DNA of 34,637 nucleotides from Chloroflexota bacterium (lineage in GTDB: Bacteria; Chloroflexota; Dormibacteria; CF-121), in the NCBI GenBank assembly GCA_005889345.1, contig VBFR01000220.1, positions 1 through 34,637 on the forward strand. The letters run 5' to 3'. Each line of letters opens with the position of its first letter. Position 1 is the stretch's first letter. The notes below the pieces were generated by a model. The model searched no databases. It saw only the letters and a list, made by a program, of their open reading frames with translations, and had not been told where the DNA came from. Positions 4,787 to 16,429 of the stretch are shown piece after piece. A program made the translations under genes and the position numbers.

Positions 4787-7162
4787 TCAGACGAGCCAGC
4801 CGGTCGTCAGGAAGAACACGAGTGCCAGGTAGGCGACGAGCGTGAACCATGCCCCGGCGATCACCAGCCGCGCTCGGGTGGAAAGGGCACCCTGATCTCG
4901 CTGCCAGCGACCCGGGTAGCGCAGGCGCAGCACGACGAAGGCAAGAAACACGATCACCGGTATCAGCGGGTCGGCCACGCCCAGGCCCAGGGCGGCCGCG
5001 CCCGCGACGAGGGCCGCGAAGACGCCGACCGCCGGAAGCCACCGCCCCACGACCAGCAGAATGGCTTCGACATCGACCGTAATGAAGGGGACCAGGCTCC
5101 CGAAGAGGTTGGCGGCCGCGCCGGCCGCGACCCACGGCAAGATATGGGGAGAGCCGGTCAGGACATAGAGGGCGAGCGCGACCGCCGTCGCCAGCCCGCC
5201 CGCCAGCCCGCCGGCGAGCGAGAGGCGGGCGTGGGTGAGTCCGTCGATCTTCTCGCCGGCAAGCGCGACGAAGGCTCCGAGCAGGACGAAGACCGGCGGG
5301 GTTGTGGCCAGTCCAACCCGCCGCCCCTCGACGTAATGGCCGAGCTCGTGAACGAGCAACATCAGCATGATGCCGGTCGCGAACCAATCGCCCATCAGCC
5401 GCGAGTAGAGCACCCAGCAGGCGATAAAGGTCGCGATCGAGATCCCCAGGTCAGACTGGCCGATCACCGGCAGGCGATGCAGCCAACCGTACTCGCGGAA
5501 GAGCTGTGGCTCGGGCGTACCGTCGGACGGGGAGGGCGAATCGCCACTCATCGCCTTTACGAGCCCGTTCAGGTCGCCCATGGTGAACGCGCGGTTGACT
5601 TGACGATGCTTGTCGAGGCTCGCGAGGGAGATGGCGCGCATTGGACCGAGCTCGCTTCGACGGGTGAGCGTGACCAACGTACCCTCTGCAACGGCGTTGA
5701 ATCGCCACTCCGCGCGGTCGGGAAACCATTTCCCGACGAGATCCGCGCTGATGACCGGCTGTTGACCGCCCGTCTCGGTGACGCGGCTTTCGTACTCGAG
5801 GACGAGCCCGTCGCCGACGCGCTGGGTGGAGCGGTAGCGTCGTGACGATGGGGAACCATCCGCCGGCAACGGTTCGACCGCGACCATCACCGGCTGCCAC
5901 TTCGGCTCGTTGCGCATATCCCCGACAAAGGCGACGACCTCGGCCAGCGGTCGTCGCACCAGGATGCGGGCTGAGCATTTCAGGGTTCGCCAGTGCGGCA
6001 GCAGGCGCCAGCCGAATTGGAAAAGCACCATCACCGCAAGCGTCGCGGCGAGAAACGGGGCTCGGGGGATGAGCCACCGCTCTGCCTCGATGACGATGAA
6101 GGCCACCATCAGCGCGCGCAGGGCGGCCGCCAGCACGGTCTGTCGCTCGAGTGCCGCGAGGGAAACGACTTCGGGCTCAAGCGGCTGGGTGGGCGACGCG
6201 AGAGGGCGCAAGCGCCACACGGCCGCCGTCAGACCCAGGGTCAAAAGGATCCCCACGAGCGCGAGCGGTAACCAGGGAGGTGGCGTCGCCGGCAACTCCT
6301 GATGAGAGACGAATGCCCCTTCCCGCGTCAGGACGGTGGCGACCGGGGCGCCGCTCGACGCCGTGTCGACCAGGGCACATTGCTGCGCCTGGAAGGTCGA
6401 GGTCAATTGACCGTACGCACCCTCGGGGATGCCGCGCACGTCGTTCGCGCCGGACTTGGCGGGATTCCACCATGGCCGGTTTTCCTGCTCGACGTACTGG
6501 CGCCCGAAGCACAGCAACGGCGATCCGCTCGCGAGACCGATGGCGAAGATATTGCGCGCATCGATCGGCTGCGTCGCGAAATCCCGGTAGTCACGGCTCA
6601 GCCGATCCACAAATTGCTCGAGCGGAATCGGGAGGGCACCGGCGCGTGGCGCGAAACGCTCGGGCGACCCCGCCGTCAAGAGCTGTTCGAGCCGCTCGGC
6701 GGAATCGGGTCCGGATGCCCAGCTCTCCAAGCGAACCCGCCAGGGAGACGCCGCGTCATCTCGGACCATCACCACCAGGGCGGTCCAGAATACGTAGCGG
6801 CCTGTCGGGTCGGGTGCGTTGGTTACGCGCGTCGCCGCCACGAAGAATGCCGGATAGGTCAATTGAAGGGGCACAAGGACGCTCTGGCCAACCAGCCCAC
6901 GCCGCCCCGAACCGCCCGGCCGGTCTGACACCAGGCCGTCCATCCAGGCCAGGTCCTGGGCGAGCGCCGGCCCCTCATCGACCGCGGCAAGGACGGCCCG
7001 GTTGCGCTGCGCCAGCGCATCTTCGCGGCGGCCCCACGCTTCATCGAGGATGCCTCCGGCCTGCAGGGGTGTCACAACCGGAGTGTCGGCGGGGGCGTCG
7101 GCCCACGCCGGGAGCGAACCCAGCAAGAAGAGCACGACCGCGCCGAGGAGCACGCGCCGCAT
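4787..7162 (-). CDS. Exported/membrane SRPBCC-M50 (site-2-protease-like) fusion protein
   Basis: The 791-residue protein has an unusual layout. Residues 1-22 form a signal peptide (MRRVLLGAVVLFLLGSLPAWA). An extracellular region of unknown fold follows to about residue 290. Then come two or three membrane segments (about 295-390), an SRPBCC/polyketide-cyclase-like domain (about 396-537, starting CSARILVRRPLAEVVAFV) and a C-terminal multi-pass M50 protease domain. The M50 domain has the zinc motif HELGH at 605-609 inside a membrane helix, and a later SLVPFITVDVEA segment that could supply the third zinc ligand (Asp). M50 enzymes cleave substrates within the membrane. The SRPBCC domain, a hydrophobic-ligand-binding fold, may sense a lipid or position a substrate; that is inference. 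The start ATG gives an intact signal peptide. Confidence 0.82.
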   Translation of the reverse strand: MRRVLLGAVVLFLLGSLPAWADAPADTPVVTPLQAGGILDEAWGRREDALAQRNRAVLAAVDEGPALAQDLAWMDGLVSDRPGGSGRRGLVGQSVLVPLQLTYPAFFVAATRVTNAPDPTGRYVFWTALVVMVRDDAASPWRVRLESWASGPDSAERLEQLLTAGSPERFAPRAGALPIPLEQFVDRLSRDYRDFATQPIDARNIFAIGLASGSPLLCFGRQYVEQENRPWWNPAKSGANDVRGIPEGAYGQLTSTFQAQQCALVDTASSGAPVATVLTREGAFVSHQELPATPPPWLPLALVGILLTLGLTAAVWRLRPLASPTQPLEPEVVSLAALERQTVLAAALRALMVAFIVIEAERWLIPRAPFLAATLAVMVLFQFGWRLLPHWRTLKCSARILVRRPLAEVVAFVGDMRNEPKWQPVMVAVEPLPADGSPSSRRYRSTQRVGDGLVLEYESRVTETGGQQPVISADLVGKWFPDRAEWRFNAVAEGTLVTLTRRSELGPMRAISLASLDKHRQVNRAFTMGDLNGLVKAMSGDSPSPSDGTPEPQLFREYGWLHRLPVIGQSDLGISIATFIACWVLYSRLMGDWFATGIMLMLLVHELGHYVEGRRVGLATTPPVFVLLGAFVALAGEKIDGLTHARLSLAGGLAGGLATAVALALYVLTGSPHILPWVAAGAAANLFGSLVPFITVDVEAILLVVGRWLPAVGVFAALVAGAAALGLGVADPLIPVIVFLAFVVLRLRYPGRWQRDQGALSTRARLVIAGAWFTLVAYLALVFFLTTGWLV

Positions 7163-7308: not shown

Positions 7309-7704
7309 GTGTCGCCTCTTCCCGCAGAAGTCATGGATCTTCGCGTCAAAATGGCGCGTTGGGGCCTTCGAGGATTCTGGCTGCTGGCCGGCGTGGCAGC
7401 CAGCGTCATGGTGGGGGCATTCATCTTCCCAAAGCAATTCGACATCTTCCTGGATATCAGCGTGGGCCTTTGGATCGCCGCGATGTTGTGCATGGCCATC
7501 ATGTGCGTGCGGTTTGTTCAGTTTCTTCTAGCGCGTCACCGGTTCTATCGCCAGCTGTCGCACCAGTACGGAGATTCCTTTGCGAAAGATGTACGTCGTA
7601 CTGAGAATCCGCCCTGGTGGAACCGCATGAGCAGGCTGCAGAGGACGCTGTATCTCCTCGGCGCCCTGGCGCTCGGGCTGCTCGCGGCCGTCGCTCGACA
7701 CTGA
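7309..7704 (+). CDS. Small multi-pass membrane protein, unknown function
   Basis: This is a protein of 131 residues from the GTG at 7309, or 123 from the ATG at 7333 (MDLRVKMARW). I cannot decide the start because neither has a convincing ribosome site. Hydrophobic segments lie near residues 21-40, 47-70 and 111-128, separated by a basic cytoplasmic-type loop (LARHRFYRQLSHQYGDSF). I do not recognise a family. It is transcribed away from the M50 protease gene (146-base gap), so the two are divergent neighbours. Coding status is supported by the hydrophobic pattern and the lack of a better frame on either strand. Confidence 0.6.
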   Translation: MSPLPAEVMDLRVKMARWGLRGFWLLAGVAASVMVGAFIFPKQFDIFLDISVGLWIAAMLCMAIMCVRFVQFLLARHRFYRQLSHQYGDSFAKDVRRTENPPWWNRMSRLQRTLYLLGALALGLLAAVARH

Positions 7705-9712: not shown

Positions 9713-11458
9713 CTATCGCGCCGACCGACCGAAGAGCTCCCTCCGCTTGAGCCACGCTGCTGTCAACAGGGCGATCAGTCCGGCCAGGACTCCGCCGGCC
9801 GCGGCAGGCGCCGGGCCGCCCGTGGCCTGGTACGCGCCCGCGCCGGTAGTTGCCAGTTGGCCGGCGGCACCTGCGCCGCTGGTCTGCCCGCCGGCGCCGG
9901 TCGTAACCCCGCCAGCACCGGTGGTCGTCTCGACCGCCGTCGCACCCGCGAGGCCCGCCGTCGTGGTGGTCTCGGTAACGGTGGCGCCAGCCGCGCCGCC
10001 CGCCGAGGCCGTCGTCTCTGTGACAGTGGCACCGCCTGCCGTGCCCGAGGTCTCGTTGACCGTGCTGGCCGCGGCGGCCGAGGCCGTCGTCTCTGTGACG
10101 GTGGCACCGCCTGCCGTGCCCGAGGTCTCGTTAACGGTGCTGGCCGCGCCGGCGGAGGTTGAGGTTTCGGTGACCGTCCCAGCTGCGCTGCCGGTGCTTC
10201 CGCCTGCAGCAGAAGTCGATGTCTCGTTCGTGGTTCCGGCGCCGTTCTCGCTGCCGGTGCTCCCGCCTGCAGCAGAAGTCGATGTCTCGTTCGTGGTTCC
10301 GGCGCCGTTCTCGCTGCCGGTGCTCCCGACTGCAGCAGAAGTCGACGTCTCGTTCGCGGTTCCGGCGCCATTGGTGCTGCCGTTGCCGCTTCCCTGCGCG
10401 ACGCTGGTTTCGCTGGTCCCGGCCTGCGAGCCCGCTGCCGAACCATTGCTGCCCTGTGCTGCCGCGCTGGTGTTGCTGGCATTGCCGGCCGATGCTGCCC
10501 CAGACCCATGGCCGCTGCCTTGAGCCGCCGCGCTGGTGTTGCTGGCGTTGCCGGCTGAGGCGGCGCCGGATGCATGCCCGCTGCCCTGGGCCGCCGCGCT
10601 CGTGTTGCTCGCGTTGCCGGCCGAGGCGGCGCCGGATGCATGCCCGCTGCCCGCCGCGCTCGTGTTGCTCGCATTGCCGGCCGAAGCGGCGCCGGATCCA
10701 TGTCCACTACCCTGGGCCGCCGCGCTGGTGTTGCTCGCGTTGCCGGCCGAGGCGGCGCCGGATCCATGTCCACTCCCCTGGGCCGCCGCGCTGGTGTTGC
10801 TTGCGTTGCCGGCCGAGGCGGCGCCGGACCCATGTCCACTCCCCTGGGCCGCCGCGCTGGTGTTGCTTGCGTTGCCGGCTGACGCGGCGCCGGACCCATG
10901 TCCACTCCCCTGGGCCGCGGCGCTGGTGTTGCTGGCATTCGCCGCTGACGCGGCGCCCGACCCATGACCGCTGCCCTGCGCCGCGGCTGACGTCGAGGTT
11001 TCGTTTACGGTGCCGGCGCCGTTGGCACTGCCATGCCCACTACCTGCCGCATGGTTTGCCGAACCCTGGGCGTCATGGCCGCTGTCCGCTCCGGTGCCTC
11101 CGGTGCCGCCGTGGCCGTCATCGCCATCCTCACCGCTCCCGCTATTACCTGGATGGAACGCGACTACTTCGTCCGCAGTGGCCGCCTTGGTCATGACTGC
11201 CGGCGCGCTTGTGCCCAGGTTGGGAATGGCAGGTGCCGGCTTTCGCGATCCAGCGAGCTGAACGACGAGCGGCGATTCGGCCGCATGGTAGGTCGGCGTC
11301 CAGGTCACGTTGCCATAGCTTGCCGACCGTCCGATAACAAGCAGCCCGGCAAATAACAGCCCAGAGAGCTTCAGGGGCCAGCTTGACTTCGAGATGAGGA
11401 CCTCTGAGTCATCGCTGAAATATGCCGCGTTCCGGGGCGCAGATACAGAAGCAATCAA
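9713..11458 (-). CDS. LAxTG-anchored surface protein with 22-residue Ser/Gly/Ala repeats
   Basis: The protein has 581 residues from a TTG at 11458. That start is preferred over the upstream in-frame GTG at 11500 because GGGAGGG lies 7 bases before the TTG, matching the RBS of the paralogue at 16429. Its parts are a long charged n-region and signal anchor (SWPLKLSGLLFAGLLVIG), a short conserved block with WTPTYHA, an Asp/Gly/His linker, and eight near-identical repeats (consensus AAQGSGHGSGAASAGNASNTSA). Then come Thr/Glu-rich degenerate repeats (NETSTSAA, TVTETT), the sortase motif LATTG (bases 9842-9856), a hydrophobic helix and the basic tail KRRELFGRSAR. LAxTG is the class E sortase recognition type. 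It is probably covalently linked to the cell wall as a disordered stalk. No folded adhesive head is visible. Confidence 0.85.
   Translation of the reverse strand: MIASVSAPRNAAYFSDDSEVLISKSSWPLKLSGLLFAGLLVIGRSASYGNVTWTPTYHAAESPLVVQLAGSRKPAPAIPNLGTSAPAVMTKAATADEVVAFHPGNSGSGEDGDDGHGGTGGTGADSGHDAQGSANHAAGSGHGSANGAGTVNETSTSAAAQGSGHGSGAASAANASNTSAAAQGSGHGSGAASAGNASNTSAAAQGSGHGSGAASAGNASNTSAAAQGSGHGSGAASAGNASNTSAAAQGSGHGSGAASAGNASNTSAAGSGHASGAASAGNASNTSAAAQGSGHASGAASAGNASNTSAAAQGSGHGSGAASAGNASNTSAAAQGSNGSAAGSQAGTSETSVAQGSGNGSTNGAGTANETSTSAAVGSTGSENGAGTTNETSTSAAGGSTGSENGAGTTNETSTSAAGGSTGSAAGTVTETSTSAGAASTVNETSGTAGGATVTETTASAAAASTVNETSGTAGGATVTETTASAGGAAGATVTETTTTAGLAGATAVETTTGAGGVTTGAGGQTSGAGAAGQLATTGAGAYQATGGPAPAAAGGVLAGLIALLTAAWLKRRELFGRSAR
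10463..10984 (-). repeat. 66-bp tandem repeats (8 units) inside the smaller surface protein
   Basis: There are eight consecutive units, seven of 66 bases and one of 60. The short unit lacks two residues (the AQ pair) and keeps the frame. The units are nearly identical in DNA, unlike the diverged 57-bp repeats of the neighbouring gene, which suggests recent expansion or frequent homogenisation. Unit length is a multiple of three, so copy-number change keeps the reading frame. Confidence 0.93.
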
Positions 11459-11548
11459 TGTTGTTCCCTCCCAACACCCAGATTGGCGTCGCCTGATCAC
11501 CGATTGTGAAACATCTGTACGTTCTTGTCGAGTTTCCGCTTGCTTGTC

Positions 11549-11577
11549 AGACTAGACCGTTCGGGAAGTTCTGTCAA
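11549..11577 (-). promoter_or_regulatory. Probable sigma-70 promoter of the smaller surface protein gene
   Basis: On the minus strand TTGACA (11572-11577) is followed after 17 bases by TAGTCT (11549-11554). It lies about 90 bases upstream of the TTG start and just beyond the terminator of the paralogous gene. The -35 is perfect; the -10 is weak. The same TGTTGACA context is seen before the paralogue at 16539-16546. Confidence 0.6.
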
Positions 11578-11631
11578 CATCCTATATATATAACCTGATA
11601 GCCATAATGGGCTGGTTTGCCTGAAACCCCT

Positions 11632-11667
11632 GGAAAGAAAGAAACCGCCGGACTTTCGCCCGGCGGT
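11632..11667 (-). terminator. Intrinsic terminator after the giant repeat protein gene
   Basis: On the minus strand, 20 bases after the TAA stop, a CCGCCGG/CCGGCGG stem (arms at 11645-11651 and 11660-11666) with a short loop is followed by a T-rich stretch (TTTCTTTCTTTCC). This separates the two paralogous surface protein genes into independent transcription units. Confidence 0.85.
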
Positions 11668-11686
11668 CTCAGCCTCGCAGCGATCT

Positions 11687-14600
11687 TTATCGAAGGAATC
11701 GCCGCAGGATCTCCTTGGGCCGCAAAAGCGCGACGCCGACCATCGCCAGGAGCGCTCCGAGCAGACCCTCGGCGCCCGTAGCCGGACCGCCGCCGGTGTT
11801 GGCGAGCGTTCCAGTGCCGGCCCCGGCTCCTGCAACGTTGCCGCCGCCCCCAGTGGTCTCCGAAGTGCCGGTCTCAGCGCCAGCCGTGCCCACAGAGCCA
11901 CTCGATCCCTCGACGCCCGAGTTTCCGGTCTCGGCGCCCAGCGTACCCTGGCTGCCGCTACTGCCCTGTACGTCCGAAATGCCGGTCTCGTTACCGACGG
12001 TGCCCATGCTGCCACCGGTGCCTTGTACGTCCGAAATGCCGGTCTCGTTGCCGACCGTGCCCATGCTGCCACCGGTGCCTTGTACGTCCGAAATGCCGGT
12101 CTCGTTGCCGACCGTGCCCATGCTGCCACCGGTCCCTTGTACATCCGAGATTCCGGTCTCGTTACCAACTGTCCCTGTTGACTCGCCGGTCCCTTGCACG
12201 TCCGAGATACCGGTCTCGTTGCCCACAGTTCCGGTTGAGCCTGAGCTGCCCTGGACATCAGAGATGCCCGTTTCGTTGCCTACGGTGCCCATGCTCCCAG
12301 CGCTACCTTGGACATCCGAAATGCCGGTCTCGTTCCCGACCGTTCCGGTCGAGCCGCTGCTGCCCTGAACATCTGAAATGCCGGTCTCGTTACCGACCGT
12401 TCCGGTCGAGCCGCTGCTGCCCTGAACATCTGAGATACCGGTCTCAGCACCCGCGGTACCTGTGCTGCCGCCCGAGCCCTGGACATCTGATTGTCCGGTC
12501 TCAGCGCCTGCGGTACCCGTGCTGCCGCTAGATCCCTGGACATCCGAGATGCCCGTCTCGGCGCCCGCTGTGCCAGTGCTCCCGCTAGATCCCTGAACGT
12601 CCGACATACCGGTCTCGGCGCCCGCGGTGCCTGTACTGCCGCTAGAACCCTGGACATCCGAGATGCCCGTTTCAGCACCCGCTGTCCCCGTGCTGCCGCT
12701 AGATCCCTGGACATCCGATTGTCCGGTTTCACCTGCGACTGTTCCCTGGCTTCCAGAAGAACCCTGGACATCTGAGACCCCGGTCTCGTTGCCGACCGTA
12801 CCGGTTGAGCCGCCACTGCCTTGCACATCCGAGATGCCGGTTTCATTCCCGACCGTTCCCGTCGAGCCACTGCTGCCCTGGACATCTGAGATGCCCGTCT
12901 CAGCGCCCGCTGTTCCCGTGCTGCCGCCCGAGCCCTGGACATCCGAGATACCCGTCTCAGCGCCTGCCGTACCTGTGCTGCCGCCAGAACCCTGGACGTC
13001 CGAGATACCAGTCTCGGCACCCGCGGTCCCTGTGCTGCCGCTGGACCCCTGGACATCGGAGATGCCTGTCTCGGCGCCCGCCGTGCCCATGCTGCCGGCC
13101 GAGCCCTGGACATCCGATTGTCCAGTTTCATTACCGACGGTTCCTTGGCTGCCGGATGATCCCTGCACATCCGAGATGCCGGTCTCGTTCCCAACGGTGC
13201 CCTGGGTACCGCTCGATCCCTGCACGTCAGAGATTCCGGTCTCGTTGCCGACTGTGCCTACGCTGCCGCTCGAACCCTGGACATCGGAGCCGCCCGTCTC
13301 AGCGCCTGCCGTGCCCTGGCTGCCGCTGGATCCCTGTACATCAGAGATGCCGGTCTCGGCGCCCGCGGTCCCGGCACTGCCTGCCGAACCCTGGACATCC
13401 GATTGTCCAGTTTCGTTACCGACGGTTCCTTGGCTGCCGGATGATCCCTGCACATCCGAAATGCCGGTCTCGTTCCCAACGGTGCCCTGGCTACCGCTCG
13501 ATCCCTGAACGTCAGAGATGCCGGTCTCGTTGCCGACCGTGCCTACGCTGCCGCTCGAACCCTGGACATCGGAGCCGCCCGTCTCGGCGCCTGCCGTGCC
13601 CTGGCTGCCGCTGGATCCCTGTACATCAGAGATGCCTGTCTCGGCGCCCGCGGTCCCGGCACTGCCTGCCGAACCCTGGACATCAGACTGACCAGTTTCC
13701 GCGCCCGCGGTGCCGGTGCTGCCACCGGATCCCTGCACGTCAGAGATTCCGGTCTCGTTGCCGACGGTCCCTTGAGTGCCGCTCGATCCCTGCACGTCAG
13801 AGATTCCGGTCTCGTGGCCGACGGTCCCTTGACTGCCGCTCGATCCCTGCACGTCCGAGATTCCGGTCTCGTTACCGGCACTACCCTCGCTGCCACTCGA
13901 GCCCTGGACGTCTGAACTACCCGACTCGCCTCCGCCGGTACCCTGGCTGCCCGACGAGCCCTGGACATCAGAACCGCCCGACTCGCCTCCGCCGGTACCC
14001 TGGCTGCCCGACGAGCCCTGGACATCAGAACCGCCCGACTCGGCGCCTGCCGTTCCCTGGCTCCCGCTGGAACCCTGGTTGTCCGAGATGCCGGTCTCGG
14101 CGCCTGCCGTACCCTGGCTCCCCGACGAGCCCTGCACATCAGAGCTGCCGGTTTCGGCGCCCGCGGTGCCAGCGCTTCCCGTCGAGCCCTGGACGTCTGA
14201 CTGTCCGGTTTCGTTGCCCGCCGTTCCGTGGCTGCCGCTTGATCCCTGCACATCAGAAATTCCCGTCTCGTTTCCGACGGTGCCGGTGCTACCCGACGAA
14301 CCCTGCACATCCGAAATTCCCGTCTCGTTTCCGACGGTGCCGGTGCTACCCGACGAACCCTGCACATCAGAACTGCCGGTTTCCGCTCCCGCGGTCCCCT
14401 GGCTGCCGGCGGATCCTTGATTGTCGGAGCTGCCGGTTTCGGCGCCCGCCGTCCCCTGGCTTCCGCCTGAACCCTGCACGTCGGAGGTTCCCGTTTCGTT
14501 GCCTACGGTTCCCGTGCTCCCGCCGGAGCCCTGTACATCAGAAGTTCCGGTCTCGTTGCCGACCGTGCCCTGGCTTCCGCTCGATCCCTGCACGTCCGAG

Positions 14601-16429
14601 ATTCCGCTCTCGTTGCCGACGGTGCCGACGCTACCCGACGAACCCTGCACGTCAGAACTGCCGGTTTCCGCCCCAGCGGTTCCCTGGCTGCCTGCTGATC
14701 CCTGGTTGTCGGAGATTCCGGTCTCGGCGCCCGCGGTTCCCTGGCTTGCGCCGGACCCCTGCACATCCGAGGTTCCCGTCTCGTTCCCGACGGTTCCTGT
14801 GCTTCCGCTCGAGCCCTGCACATCAGAAATGCCGGTCTCGTTGCCGACTGTACCCTGGCTGCCGGACGATCCCTGGACGTCCGAAATTCCGGTCTCGTTG
14901 CCGGCCGTGCCGGCGCTGCCACCCGAACCCTGGACATCAGAACTGCCGGTTTCCGCTCCCACGGTACCCTGGCTGCCGGCGGATCCTTGATTGTCGGAGA
15001 TGCCGGTCTCGGCACCCGCTGTTCCCTGGCTCCCGCCTGAACCCTGGACATCTGACATTCCGGTCTCGTTGCCTACCGTGCCCATGCTGCCGGTCGAACC
15101 CTGGTTGTCAGAGATTCCGGTTTCCGCACCGGCCGTGCCCTGGCTCCCGCTGGATCCTTGATTGTCCGAGATGCCCGACTCGGCGCCGGCCGTACCCTGG
15201 CTTCCGGTCGATCCCTGGACGTCGCTGATTCCGGTCTCGTTTCCGGCTGTCCCGACACTACCGCTCGAGCCCGGAATGTCCGAGGCTCCGGTCTCGTTGC
15301 CGGCCGTGCCCTGGCTCCCGGTCGATCCCTGTACATCAGAGATTCCGGTTTCGTTGCCGGCCGTGCCCTGGCTGCCCGTCGAGCCCTGCACGTCGGAAAT
15401 TCCGGTCTCGTTGCCGGCCGTGCCCTGGCTCCCCGTCGAGCCCTGGATGTCTGAGTGTCCGGTTTCGGCACCCGCCGTGCCCTGGCTGCCGGCCGATCCC
15501 TGCACATCAGACTGACCGGTCTCGGCACCCGCCGTGCCCTGACTCCCGGTCGAGCCCTGCAGATCGGACGATCCGGTTTCCGCACCGGCCGTGCCCTGGC
15601 TCCCCGTCGAGCCCTGCACATCAGAATGACCCGTCTCGCCGCCGGCCGTGCCCTGGCTGCCGGTCGATCCCTGTACGTCAGACTGGCCCGACTCCTGGCC
15701 TGCCGTGCCCTGGCTGCCGGTCGATCCTTGAATATCGGACTGACCGGTTTCGTTGCCGATCGTCCCCTGGCTGCCCGCGGATCCCGGAATGTCGGACTGG
15801 CCGGTTTCACCAGCGGCGGTGCCCTGGCTCCCAGCCGATCCCTGGTGGTCCGAGATGCCCGATTCGTTGCCTGCCGTGCCCTGGCTGCCGGCGGACCCCT
15901 GGACATCAGAATTGCCGGATTCGTTCCCGCCTGTGCCCTGCGTCCCGCTCGAGCCCTGGACGTCCGAAATTCCACTCTCCATGCCGGCCGATCCCTGGCT
16001 CCCGCCCGAACCCGCGGCGTCGGAATGCCCGGTTTCGTTGGCGACCGATCCGGTGACCGTGTTCGCGGTATCCGAGGCGTCGGGGAGGGACAATCCATCG
16101 CCGCTGCCGCTGGTCTTGCCCGGGGAGAATGTGATGACCTCAGCGGCGGCGCTCTTCTTGCTGATCGCGGCCGCCGGATTGCCGGGGAGGGTTTTTGGTA
16201 AGGCCGGAGGCGTGCCTGGCTTTGGCTGATTGATCACCACGATGAGTGGCGTGGGATTGGCATGGTAAGCAGGGAGCCACACGATCTGGCCGCCGCTGGC
16301 GGCTCGACCGACGACCAGCAGACCCGCGAATAACAGGCCCGAAAGCCGTAGTGGCCAGCTCGACCTGGATATGAGAACTTCGCCGTCGTCAGAAATGGGC
16401 GCGCCTATAGCAAGTGATGTGTCGGTCAC
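11687..16429 (-). CDS. Giant LAxTG-anchored surface protein with 73 tandem 19-residue repeats
   Basis: The protein has 1580 residues from a GTG at 16429, with GGAGGGAA just upstream. Residues 1-45 form a long n-region and signal anchor (SWPLRLSGLLFAGLLVVG). Residues 46-70 form a block shared with the paralogue (WLPAYHA). Residues 71-130 form a linker. Residues 131-1517 are exactly 73 units of 19 residues, consensus (N/A)-E-T-G-x-S-D-V-Q-G-S-S-G-S-x-G-T-(A/V)-G. LANTG (1542-1546, bases 11792-11806), a hydrophobic helix and the tail RPKEILRRFLR follow. Nearly every repeat has one Glu and one Asp, and none has Lys, Arg, Cys or an aromatic residue, so the stalk is strongly acidic, Ser/Thr/Gly rich and probably extended. 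Cell-wall anchoring by a class E-type sortase is inferred; no sortase gene is in the window. It is not an RTX protein: the GGxGxDxUx nonapeptide is absent. Confidence 0.88.
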   Translation of the reverse strand: MTDTSLAIGAPISDDGEVLISRSSWPLRLSGLLFAGLLVVGRAASGGQIVWLPAYHANPTPLIVVINQPKPGTPPALPKTLPGNPAAAISKKSAAAEVITFSPGKTSGSGDGLSLPDASDTANTVTGSVANETGHSDAAGSGGSQGSAGMESGISDVQGSSGTQGTGGNESGNSDVQGSAGSQGTAGNESGISDHQGSAGSQGTAAGETGQSDIPGSAGSQGTIGNETGQSDIQGSTGSQGTAGQESGQSDVQGSTGSQGTAGGETGHSDVQGSTGSQGTAGAETGSSDLQGSTGSQGTAGAETGQSDVQGSAGSQGTAGAETGHSDIQGSTGSQGTAGNETGISDVQGSTGSQGTAGNETGISDVQGSTGSQGTAGNETGASDIPGSSGSVGTAGNETGISDVQGSTGSQGTAGAESGISDNQGSSGSQGTAGAETGISDNQGSTGSMGTVGNETGMSDVQGSGGSQGTAGAETGISDNQGSAGSQGTVGAETGSSDVQGSGGSAGTAGNETGISDVQGSSGSQGTVGNETGISDVQGSSGSTGTVGNETGTSDVQGSGASQGTAGAETGISDNQGSAGSQGTAGAETGSSDVQGSSGSVGTVGNESGISDVQGSSGSQGTVGNETGTSDVQGSGGSTGTVGNETGTSDVQGSGGSQGTAGAETGSSDNQGSAGSQGTAGAETGSSDVQGSSGSTGTVGNETGISDVQGSSGSTGTVGNETGISDVQGSSGSHGTAGNETGQSDVQGSTGSAGTAGAETGSSDVQGSSGSQGTAGAETGISDNQGSSGSQGTAGAESGGSDVQGSSGSQGTGGGESGGSDVQGSSGSQGTGGGESGSSDVQGSSGSEGSAGNETGISDVQGSSGSQGTVGHETGISDVQGSSGTQGTVGNETGISDVQGSGGSTGTAGAETGQSDVQGSAGSAGTAGAETGISDVQGSSGSQGTAGAETGGSDVQGSSGSVGTVGNETGISDVQGSSGSQGTVGNETGISDVQGSSGSQGTVGNETGQSDVQGSAGSAGTAGAETGISDVQGSSGSQGTAGAETGGSDVQGSSGSVGTVGNETGISDVQGSSGTQGTVGNETGISDVQGSSGSQGTVGNETGQSDVQGSAGSMGTAGAETGISDVQGSSGSTGTAGAETGISDVQGSGGSTGTAGAETGISDVQGSGGSTGTAGAETGISDVQGSSGSTGTVGNETGISDVQGSGGSTGTVGNETGVSDVQGSSGSQGTVAGETGQSDVQGSSGSTGTAGAETGISDVQGSSGSTGTAGAETGMSDVQGSSGSTGTAGAETGISDVQGSSGSTGTAGAETGQSDVQGSGGSTGTAGAETGISDVQGSSGSTGTVGNETGISDVQGSSGSTGTVGNETGISDVQGSAGSMGTVGNETGISDVQGSSGSTGTVGNETGISDVQGTGESTGTVGNETGISDVQGTGGSMGTVGNETGISDVQGTGGSMGTVGNETGISDVQGTGGSMGTVGNETGISDVQGSSGSQGTLGAETGNSGVEGSSGSVGTAGAETGTSETTGGGGNVAGAGAGTGTLANTGGGPATGAEGLLGALLAMVGVALLRPKEILRRFLR
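11993..12163 (-). repeat. Three near-identical 57-bp units at the C-terminal end of the array
   Basis: Units 69-71 all encode NETGISDVQGTGGSMGTVG. Two are almost base-identical and the third has a few synonymous changes, in contrast to the diverged units elsewhere. This points to recent local duplication next to the wall-anchor end of the protein. Confidence 0.9.
13076..13645 (-). repeat. 285-bp higher-order tandem duplication (2 x 5 repeat units)
   Basis: Units 43-47 (13361-13645) and 48-52 (13076-13360) are the same five-unit block in tandem. The encoded blocks differ at only two of 95 residues and the DNA differs at a small number of bases. Identical landmarks such as CTGGACATCCGATTG recur exactly 285 bases apart (13106 and 13391). 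This is a block duplication by unequal exchange. Confidence 0.93.

Follow-up and report, generated by a model that had tools for sequence, protein, structure and literature searches.

The 791-residue protein encoded at one locus of the window, by which we mean the whole 34,637-nucleotide stretch of Dormibacteria DNA that was analysed, carries a signal peptide, an exported domain, an SRPBCC domain and an M50 site-2-type protease core in a single chain. This fusion is real, rare and lineage-restricted, and it gives a known kind of protease a domain architecture that is new. Site-2 proteases that carry a PDZ or a CBS domain for regulation are known, and a Pfam scan of the 791-residue protein gave no CBS match. 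We give an even chance to the reading that the fusion is a one-chain site-2-type protease with altered substrate handling that is regulated from both sides of the membrane; its protease activity, ligand, gating and substrate are all putative.

Domain anatomy of the fusion protein

The original prediction had described a signal peptide, an exported region of about 270 residues, an SRPBCC domain and an M50 core with HELGH at residues 605-609 in one chain, and the open reading frame, the Pfam matches and the relatives all agree with this anatomy (Table 1). The exported region extends from the signal peptide to the first transmembrane (TM) segment and holds a conserved cysteine pair. That description named the domains correctly and lacked the TM segments in front of the SRPBCC domain, the predicted cytosolic position of that domain and the altered NPDG motif. 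Pfam places Polyketide_cyc2 at residues 395-505 (E 2e-5, 25.4 bits, just below the cut-off of 27.4) and Peptidase_M50 at residues 594-684 (E 0.0047, 16.7 bits, below the cut-off of 27.2). The window sequence alone would be weak ground for the anatomy because both matches lie below their cut-offs, and we consider the anatomy firm because the relatives support it. Residues 1-22 end in AWA-D, which we take to be a cleavage-like sequence. Cysteines occur only at positions 218, 262, 396 and 582, and the chain ends seven residues past its last TM segment.

Table 1. Features of the fusion gene and its product, with positions in the window.
Feature	Residues	Position	Strand	Basis
Whole gene, fusion protein of 791 aa		4787..7162	-	ORF exact, ATG start
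Signal peptide	1-22	7097..7162	-	Hydrophobic stretch 4-22 after MRR
Exported domain	23-296	6275..7096	-	Between signal peptide and first TM segment; profile searches
Cys218 of conserved pair, probable disulfide	218	6509..6511	-	Co-occurrence in 11 homologues
Cys262, partner of Cys218	262	6377..6379	-	Co-occurrence in 11 homologues
TM segment, out to in	297-315	6218..6274	-	Hydropathy; model helix 298-317
TM hairpin	342-381	6020..6139	-	Hydropathy; model helices 335-364 and 369-384 (low pLDDT)
SRPBCC (Polyketide_cyc2-like) domain, predicted cytosolic	~391-540	5543..5992	-	Profiles and full-length model
M50 site-2-type protease core	~569-790	4793..5458	-	Profiles, model and structure matches
HELGH zinc-binding/catalytic motif	605-609	5336..5350	-	Sequence and alignment
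Degenerate NPDG (NxxPxxxLDG), SLVPFITVDV	689-698	5069..5098	-	D697 kept, N689->S, G698->V

Occurrence and origin of the fusion

A domain-architecture search for SRPBCC-M50 fusions recovered the predicted fusion order in four of 110 Dormibacteria genomes, all of one family, among the matches listed (G000, G191, G304 and G302), where G000 is the genome of the window protein (P0001). In G191, which represents another genus, the gene is a single complete open reading frame of 841 aa (L002) with the same domain order and 27% identity. The other two genomes belong to the same genus as the window. The gene of G304 is split across two contig ends into pieces of 260 and 473 aa, and we infer that these halves form one fusion gene. 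The copy in G302 (L032) is frame-broken and its HExxH segment is missing, which may reflect a deletion or an assembly error in one draft assembly; it retains an intact NLAP-LDGG stretch. At L032 961-3149 (G302:C186), a canonical NPDG motif stands without an HExxH segment, the opposite of what the other three copies show.

Beyond these four, the exported domain, SRPBCC and M50 were not found together among the matches listed from the 110 class genomes. Two phylum samples of 301 and 400 genomes, in which scoring covered up to three and up to two first-look candidates per genome, respectively, yielded no further fusion among the matches listed; in both samples, the fusion was spanned in G000 and G191 only, and G302 and G304 were not among the matches listed. 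The genome search database holds one genome each for 97,973 of 199,900 species. A pattern scan of named species genomes, built from the M50 alignment, returned 113 relatives, and the M50 frame was free of SRPBCC and exported domains at 79 of the best 80 loci, which were the ones examined. The remaining locus (L097, VBJI01000010.1, Chloroflexi bacterium CF_152) carries the C-terminal SRPBCC-M50 half of a fusion in a public MAG. No SRPBCC-M50 fusion was found outside the one Dormibacteria family among the matches listed, and seven long stop-to-stop frames at other M50 genes (507-944 aa), scanned for extra Pfam domains, matched M50 only. The literature searched, which left most subscription journals outside its scope, yielded no paper on an SRPBCC-M50 fusion or a START-domain-S2P fusion.

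It might be supposed that the architecture is an artefact, either a chance open reading frame or a mis-joined contig, given that both Pfam matches of the window protein are sub-threshold and that its source genome is a draft of 306 contigs. Against this stand the complete homologue from another genus, which shares the domain order and is 27% identical, and the SRPBCC-M50 half recovered from a named public MAG. Because the same domain order recurs in relatives, neither a chance reading nor a local join in the assembly accounts for the fusion; we consider an artefact extremely improbable and reject it on the strength of these independent homologues. In the M50 tree, the three fused cores stand apart from the stand-alone cores of the same family on very long branches, with 32 rows in neither group, an unresolved join to the other class rows and long branches that could be grouped artefactually. 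The fused cores likely go back to one fusion event.

The SRPBCC domain

A lipid or a small hydrophobic molecule is often bound within the SRPBCC fold. In all three relatives that hold the domain, PF10604 scores above its cut-off of 27.4 (48.6, 49.4 and 44.7 bits), and the family profile matches the TcmN aromatase/cyclase in the PDB at E 1.4e-4 over most of the domain, together with other cyclase-like structures. The original prediction placed an SRPBCC fold at residues 396-537, and the models agree with it in part. The full-length AF2 model, which was built from a 59-row alignment with two rows across the SRPBCC part, has a strand at 392-401, a helix at 406-418, six strands between 425 and 505 and a helix at 519-539, with block pLDDT of 35-78; this is the helix-grip order at low confidence. 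A Foldseek search with that model gave fifteen matches at E <= 0.001, which were SRPBCC proteins and included TcmN at E 1.4e-5. VIA matched the model to lipid carriers and to START and Bet v 1 proteins with Z of 8.4-9.4, little above the values that the VIA notes call common. When the isolated domain was folded from two sequences, the model reached a pLDDT of 42 and had no match at E <= 0.001. The sequence profiles are stronger evidence than the models, and they clearly favour an SRPBCC assignment. The likeness to TcmN ARO/CYC and Cgl2373 (SRPBCC cyclase/START-like) rests on the profile match to TcmN and on the fold match of the low-confidence model; in contrast to those proteins, the SRPBCC domain here is tethered on one side to a TM hairpin and on the other to an M50 core.

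The same domain could instead be a structural or substrate-docking module that senses no ligand, so that the protease would be constitutively poised or controlled by partners only. According to two papers, processing by SpoIVFB does not strictly depend on its cytosolic CBS domain, and SpoIVFB is controlled by the partner membrane proteins BofA and SpoIVFA (PMC6242693, PMC9042235); no ligand-site residues could be assigned in the fusion SRPBCC domain. Many SRPBCC structures nevertheless carry hydrophobic ligands, with TcmN, Bet v 1 and START among the fold matches, and the immediate neighbourhoods inspected have no partner gene in common, although a partner could lie elsewhere. We regard a purely structural or docking role as unlikely.

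Matches in the class include proteins with TM segments before an SRPBCC domain and without M50 (L083-L088). A membrane-tethered SRPBCC domain without a protease is present in the Dormibacteria family of the fusion as well: in G191, the 309-aa product of L083 1716-2645 on the reverse strand has hydrophobic segments followed by SRPBCC (50.8 bits), and an FtsH-like gene adjoins it by inspection.

The exported domain

A profile of residues 23-296 matches 11 of the 110 class genomes, namely the four fusions and seven stand-alone frames of 362-494 residues (stop to stop), and in the 400-genome phylum sample all five exported-domain matches fall in Dormibacteria. Cys218 and Cys262 are both present in nine of the 11 homologues and both absent in the other two, and from this sequence pattern we consider the pair a probable disulfide. 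That the two cysteines are present or absent together supports placing the N-terminal domain outside, in an oxidising environment, as does the single N-terminal TM segment in every one of the seven non-fused homologues.

No Pfam or PDB match to the exported domain was found. In NCBIfam, the SCO2278-family lipoproteins (NF053531) gave weak matches to the exported domain in all six sequences scanned, with E values of 0.1 (P0001), 0.014 (L002), 2.4e-4 (L045), 8.6e-5 (L032), 0.0042 (L081) and 2.6e-5 (L082). Because the scores are 11-23 bits against a cut-off of 210, and hence below threshold, the exported domain is not a member of that family, and the lipobox cysteine of these lipoproteins was not found in the window protein. 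L081 and L082, the two of the seven stand-alone proteins that were scanned with Pfam and NCBIfam, gave only these weak lipoprotein-family matches.

Membrane topology

Hydropathy places the signal peptide, one TM segment and a TM pair ahead of the M50 core (Table 1). The hairpin pair is also found in L031 and L032, and L002 has one segment that passes the threshold. The three crossings after the exported domain (one plus two) would bring the SRPBCC domain into the cytosol; the single segment of L002, if real, would leave its SRPBCC domain outside. The loop charges are nearly neutral, with three K+R and three D+E in the linker 316-341 and 25 K+R and 21 D+E in the SRPBCC stretch 382-571. Because of this near neutrality and the segment fewer in L002, the argument from hydropathy alone is a moderate one.

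The N terminus of the SpoIVFB/mjS2P group is cytosolic. One paper describes the regulatory CBS domain of this group as cytosolic and its first and sixth helices as a lateral gate for substrate entry (PMC6242693). From the TM count, the M50 orientation and homology, the SRPBCC domain is probably cytosolic and lies before the first core helix. The M50 orientation disfavours a position outside the cell, and so do the TM segments counted for the window protein, L031 and L032; L002 has one segment fewer. The TM count and the orientation of the SpoIVFB/mjS2P group together imply that the SRPBCC domain would be attached straight to the gate helix, on the same membrane face as the catalytic site, and from the topology and the models we infer a cytosolic SRPBCC domain beside that helix. 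The original prediction had raised the question of whether the SRPBCC domain faces the active-site side. The predicted topology puts both on the cytosolic side, and the placement of the SRPBCC domain relative to the core in the AF2 model is not reliable (pTM 0.49).

The M50 core and its active site

The fold of the core is modelled with block pLDDT of 86-97 over residues 571-690, 64-79 over 691-760, which includes D697, and 86-91 beyond; H605, E606 and H609 lie inside a transmembrane helix at 592-615 with block pLDDT of 95-96. From the helix before HExxH, VIA aligned 138 residues to SpoIVFB (Z 11.3, rmsd 3.7) and 159 residues to mjS2P (Z 10.6, rmsd 7.3), values that helical bundles may reach by chance and with which the mjS2P profile match agrees. 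The M50 profile matches mjS2P at E 3e-10 and SpoIVFB at E 3.5e-4, with the HExxH motif and the LDG aspartate aligned. As in the Group III site-2 proteases SpoIVFB and mjS2P/MJ0392, the core starts one helix before HExxH, has an HExxH plus Asp zinc site and no PDZ domain, and is accompanied by a cytosolic regulatory domain (predicted here). Unlike those proteases, which carry a C-terminal CBS domain, the fusion has its SRPBCC domain, predicted cytosolic, on the N-terminal side, bears an exported domain and extra TM segments in front, and has lost the NPDG asparagine. The closest relatives of the core that we found are stand-alone M50 proteins of Dormibacteria and Actinomycetota (L105 and L150 among them), at approximately 25-36% identity in the alignment, which differ from it in that their frame includes neither SRPBCC nor the exported domain (at the 79 loci described above).

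None of the three readable fused cores (window, L031 and L002) has lost H605, E606, H609 or D697, and D697 aligns with an aspartate in 85 of 85 stand-alone relatives, whose LDG in turn aligns with mjS2P and SpoIVFB. The rest of the NPDG motif is altered. The N, P, L, D and G of the motif are all kept in the 85 stand-alone cores, whereas position 689 is S in the window protein, S in L031 and Q in L002; position 696 is V, M and T, respectively; and position 698 is V, S and G, so that the glycine is lost in two of the three. The window protein keeps P692 and lacks the full NxxPxxxLDG motif (N689->S, L696->V, G698->V).

Of the 31 sites with at least 97% conservation across the 85 stand-alone cores, 11 are kept in all three fused cores and 20 are changed in at least one. 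The four zinc/catalytic residues are among the 11 (hypergeometric P 0.010, a value weakened by near-copy rows and by a set that was partly fetched by two patterns, one of which holds HExxH). The 85 cores pool two sets (57 + 28) from which only identical strings were removed, so that near-copies may count twice, and the larger set comprises 57 of the 71 stretches listed, from 79 loci. Because HExxH is in one fetching pattern, the conservation of H, E and H among the stand-alone cores cannot count as independent; the contrast at N689 is unaffected. That H, E, H and D are kept although 20 of the 31 conserved sites are changed speaks for catalysis having been retained.

In human S2P, according to PMC4935805, the N459S protein, altered at the first residue of the NPDG motif, is stable, and its cleavage of OASIS and its activation of ATF6 and SRE reporters are impaired. 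This impairment is one of several observations consistent with a different reading, according to which the M50 part has ceased to be a normal protease and is decaying or has been repurposed as a zinc-binding scaffold in the membrane, and the protein is a two-sided sensor or lipid handler with SRPBCC as its business end. In addition to the asparagine lost in three of three fused cores and the glycine after D697 lost in two of three, the HExxH segment is missing in G302, the fused M50 branches are long, and Pfam M50 is below its cut-off in L002 and L031 (10.3 and 15.9 bits) as in P0001, whereas all eight stand-alone relatives scanned pass it. Set against these points, the four zinc/catalytic residues persist in three of three cores despite the changes elsewhere, a pseudoprotease would be expected to show drift of the catalytic glutamate, and the break in G302, found in a single draft assembly, could be an error of assembly. 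We hold the scaffold reading to be rather unlikely. Judged from the sequences, the zinc site looks to be under selection, and either substrate presentation may be altered or the domain may be moving toward another role.

A proposed protease regulated from both sides of the membrane

According to the reading of a two-sided regulated protease, which we prefer, the exported domain would sample the outer side of the cytoplasmic membrane, and one TM segment and the TM hairpin would bring the chain back into the cytosol. There, the SRPBCC domain, a possible holder of a hydrophobic ligand, would be attached to the first helix of an M50 core of the SpoIVFB/mjS2P type. If the SRPBCC domain changed state, with its ligand bound or free, or if the exported domain did, the change could then reach the lateral gate directly, and opening of the gate would let a candidate membrane substrate reach the zinc site. 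The loss of the NPDG asparagine from all three fused cores and the frame-broken G302 copy without HExxH count against this preferred reading as well.

Gating by a hydrophobic ligand, the mechanism put forward in the original prediction, is compatible with the predicted placement of the SRPBCC domain and the catalytic site on the same cytosolic side. It becomes more plausible because the SRPBCC domain is predicted to be cytosolic and gate-adjacent, and less certain because the NPDG motif is changed. The more specific proposal of a dual-input, ligand-gated site-2 protease, in which a cytosolic SRPBCC domain with a lipid or hydrophobic metabolite is wired directly to the lateral-gate helix of a core with a replaced NPDG asparagine and the fused domains have thereby taken over substrate presentation, is one that we advance tentatively and consider rather unlikely. 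The literature searched held no description of a ligand-gated site-2 protease of this kind. If the proposal is true, a small hydrophobic ligand acting directly on the protease would be an input new to site-2 proteases, and the state of the membrane or of a metabolite would be coupled to cleavage within one chain. The fused cores, which have naturally lost the NPDG asparagine beside a complete zinc site, also offer a direct test of the need for that asparagine. Because the family was found in few Dormibacteria only, its general impact would be limited unless activity is shown.

Genomic context

In the window, the neighbours of the fusion gene encode a transketolase and a DEAD helicase. Elsewhere, an amidohydrolase adjoins L002 and a CHAP protein adjoins L031, and by inspection a response regulator gene precedes L032. 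No gene is common to the fusion neighbourhoods among the immediate neighbours, with longer flanks covered by four domain profiles only. The immediate neighbours are ordinary, and they suggest no substrate or partner.

Several other genes of the window were recorded. Just upstream of the fusion gene and divergent from it, 7309-7704 on the forward strand encodes a 131-aa protein with hydrophobic stretches, and downstream of the transketolase gene, 348-1160 on the reverse strand encodes a 270-aa protein; neither has a Pfam match at E <= 0.01. Two adjacent reverse-strand genes at 9713-11500 and 11687-16429 encode surface-like repeat proteins of 595 and 1580 aa, each with an N-terminal hydrophobic segment. 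The C-terminal tails of these two proteins, LATTG/LANTG-like, hydrophobic and basic, resemble sortase signals by inspection. The repeat arrays of the gene pair (9713-16429) comprise approximately 62-66 copies of a 57-nt period and approximately eight copies of a 66-nt period.
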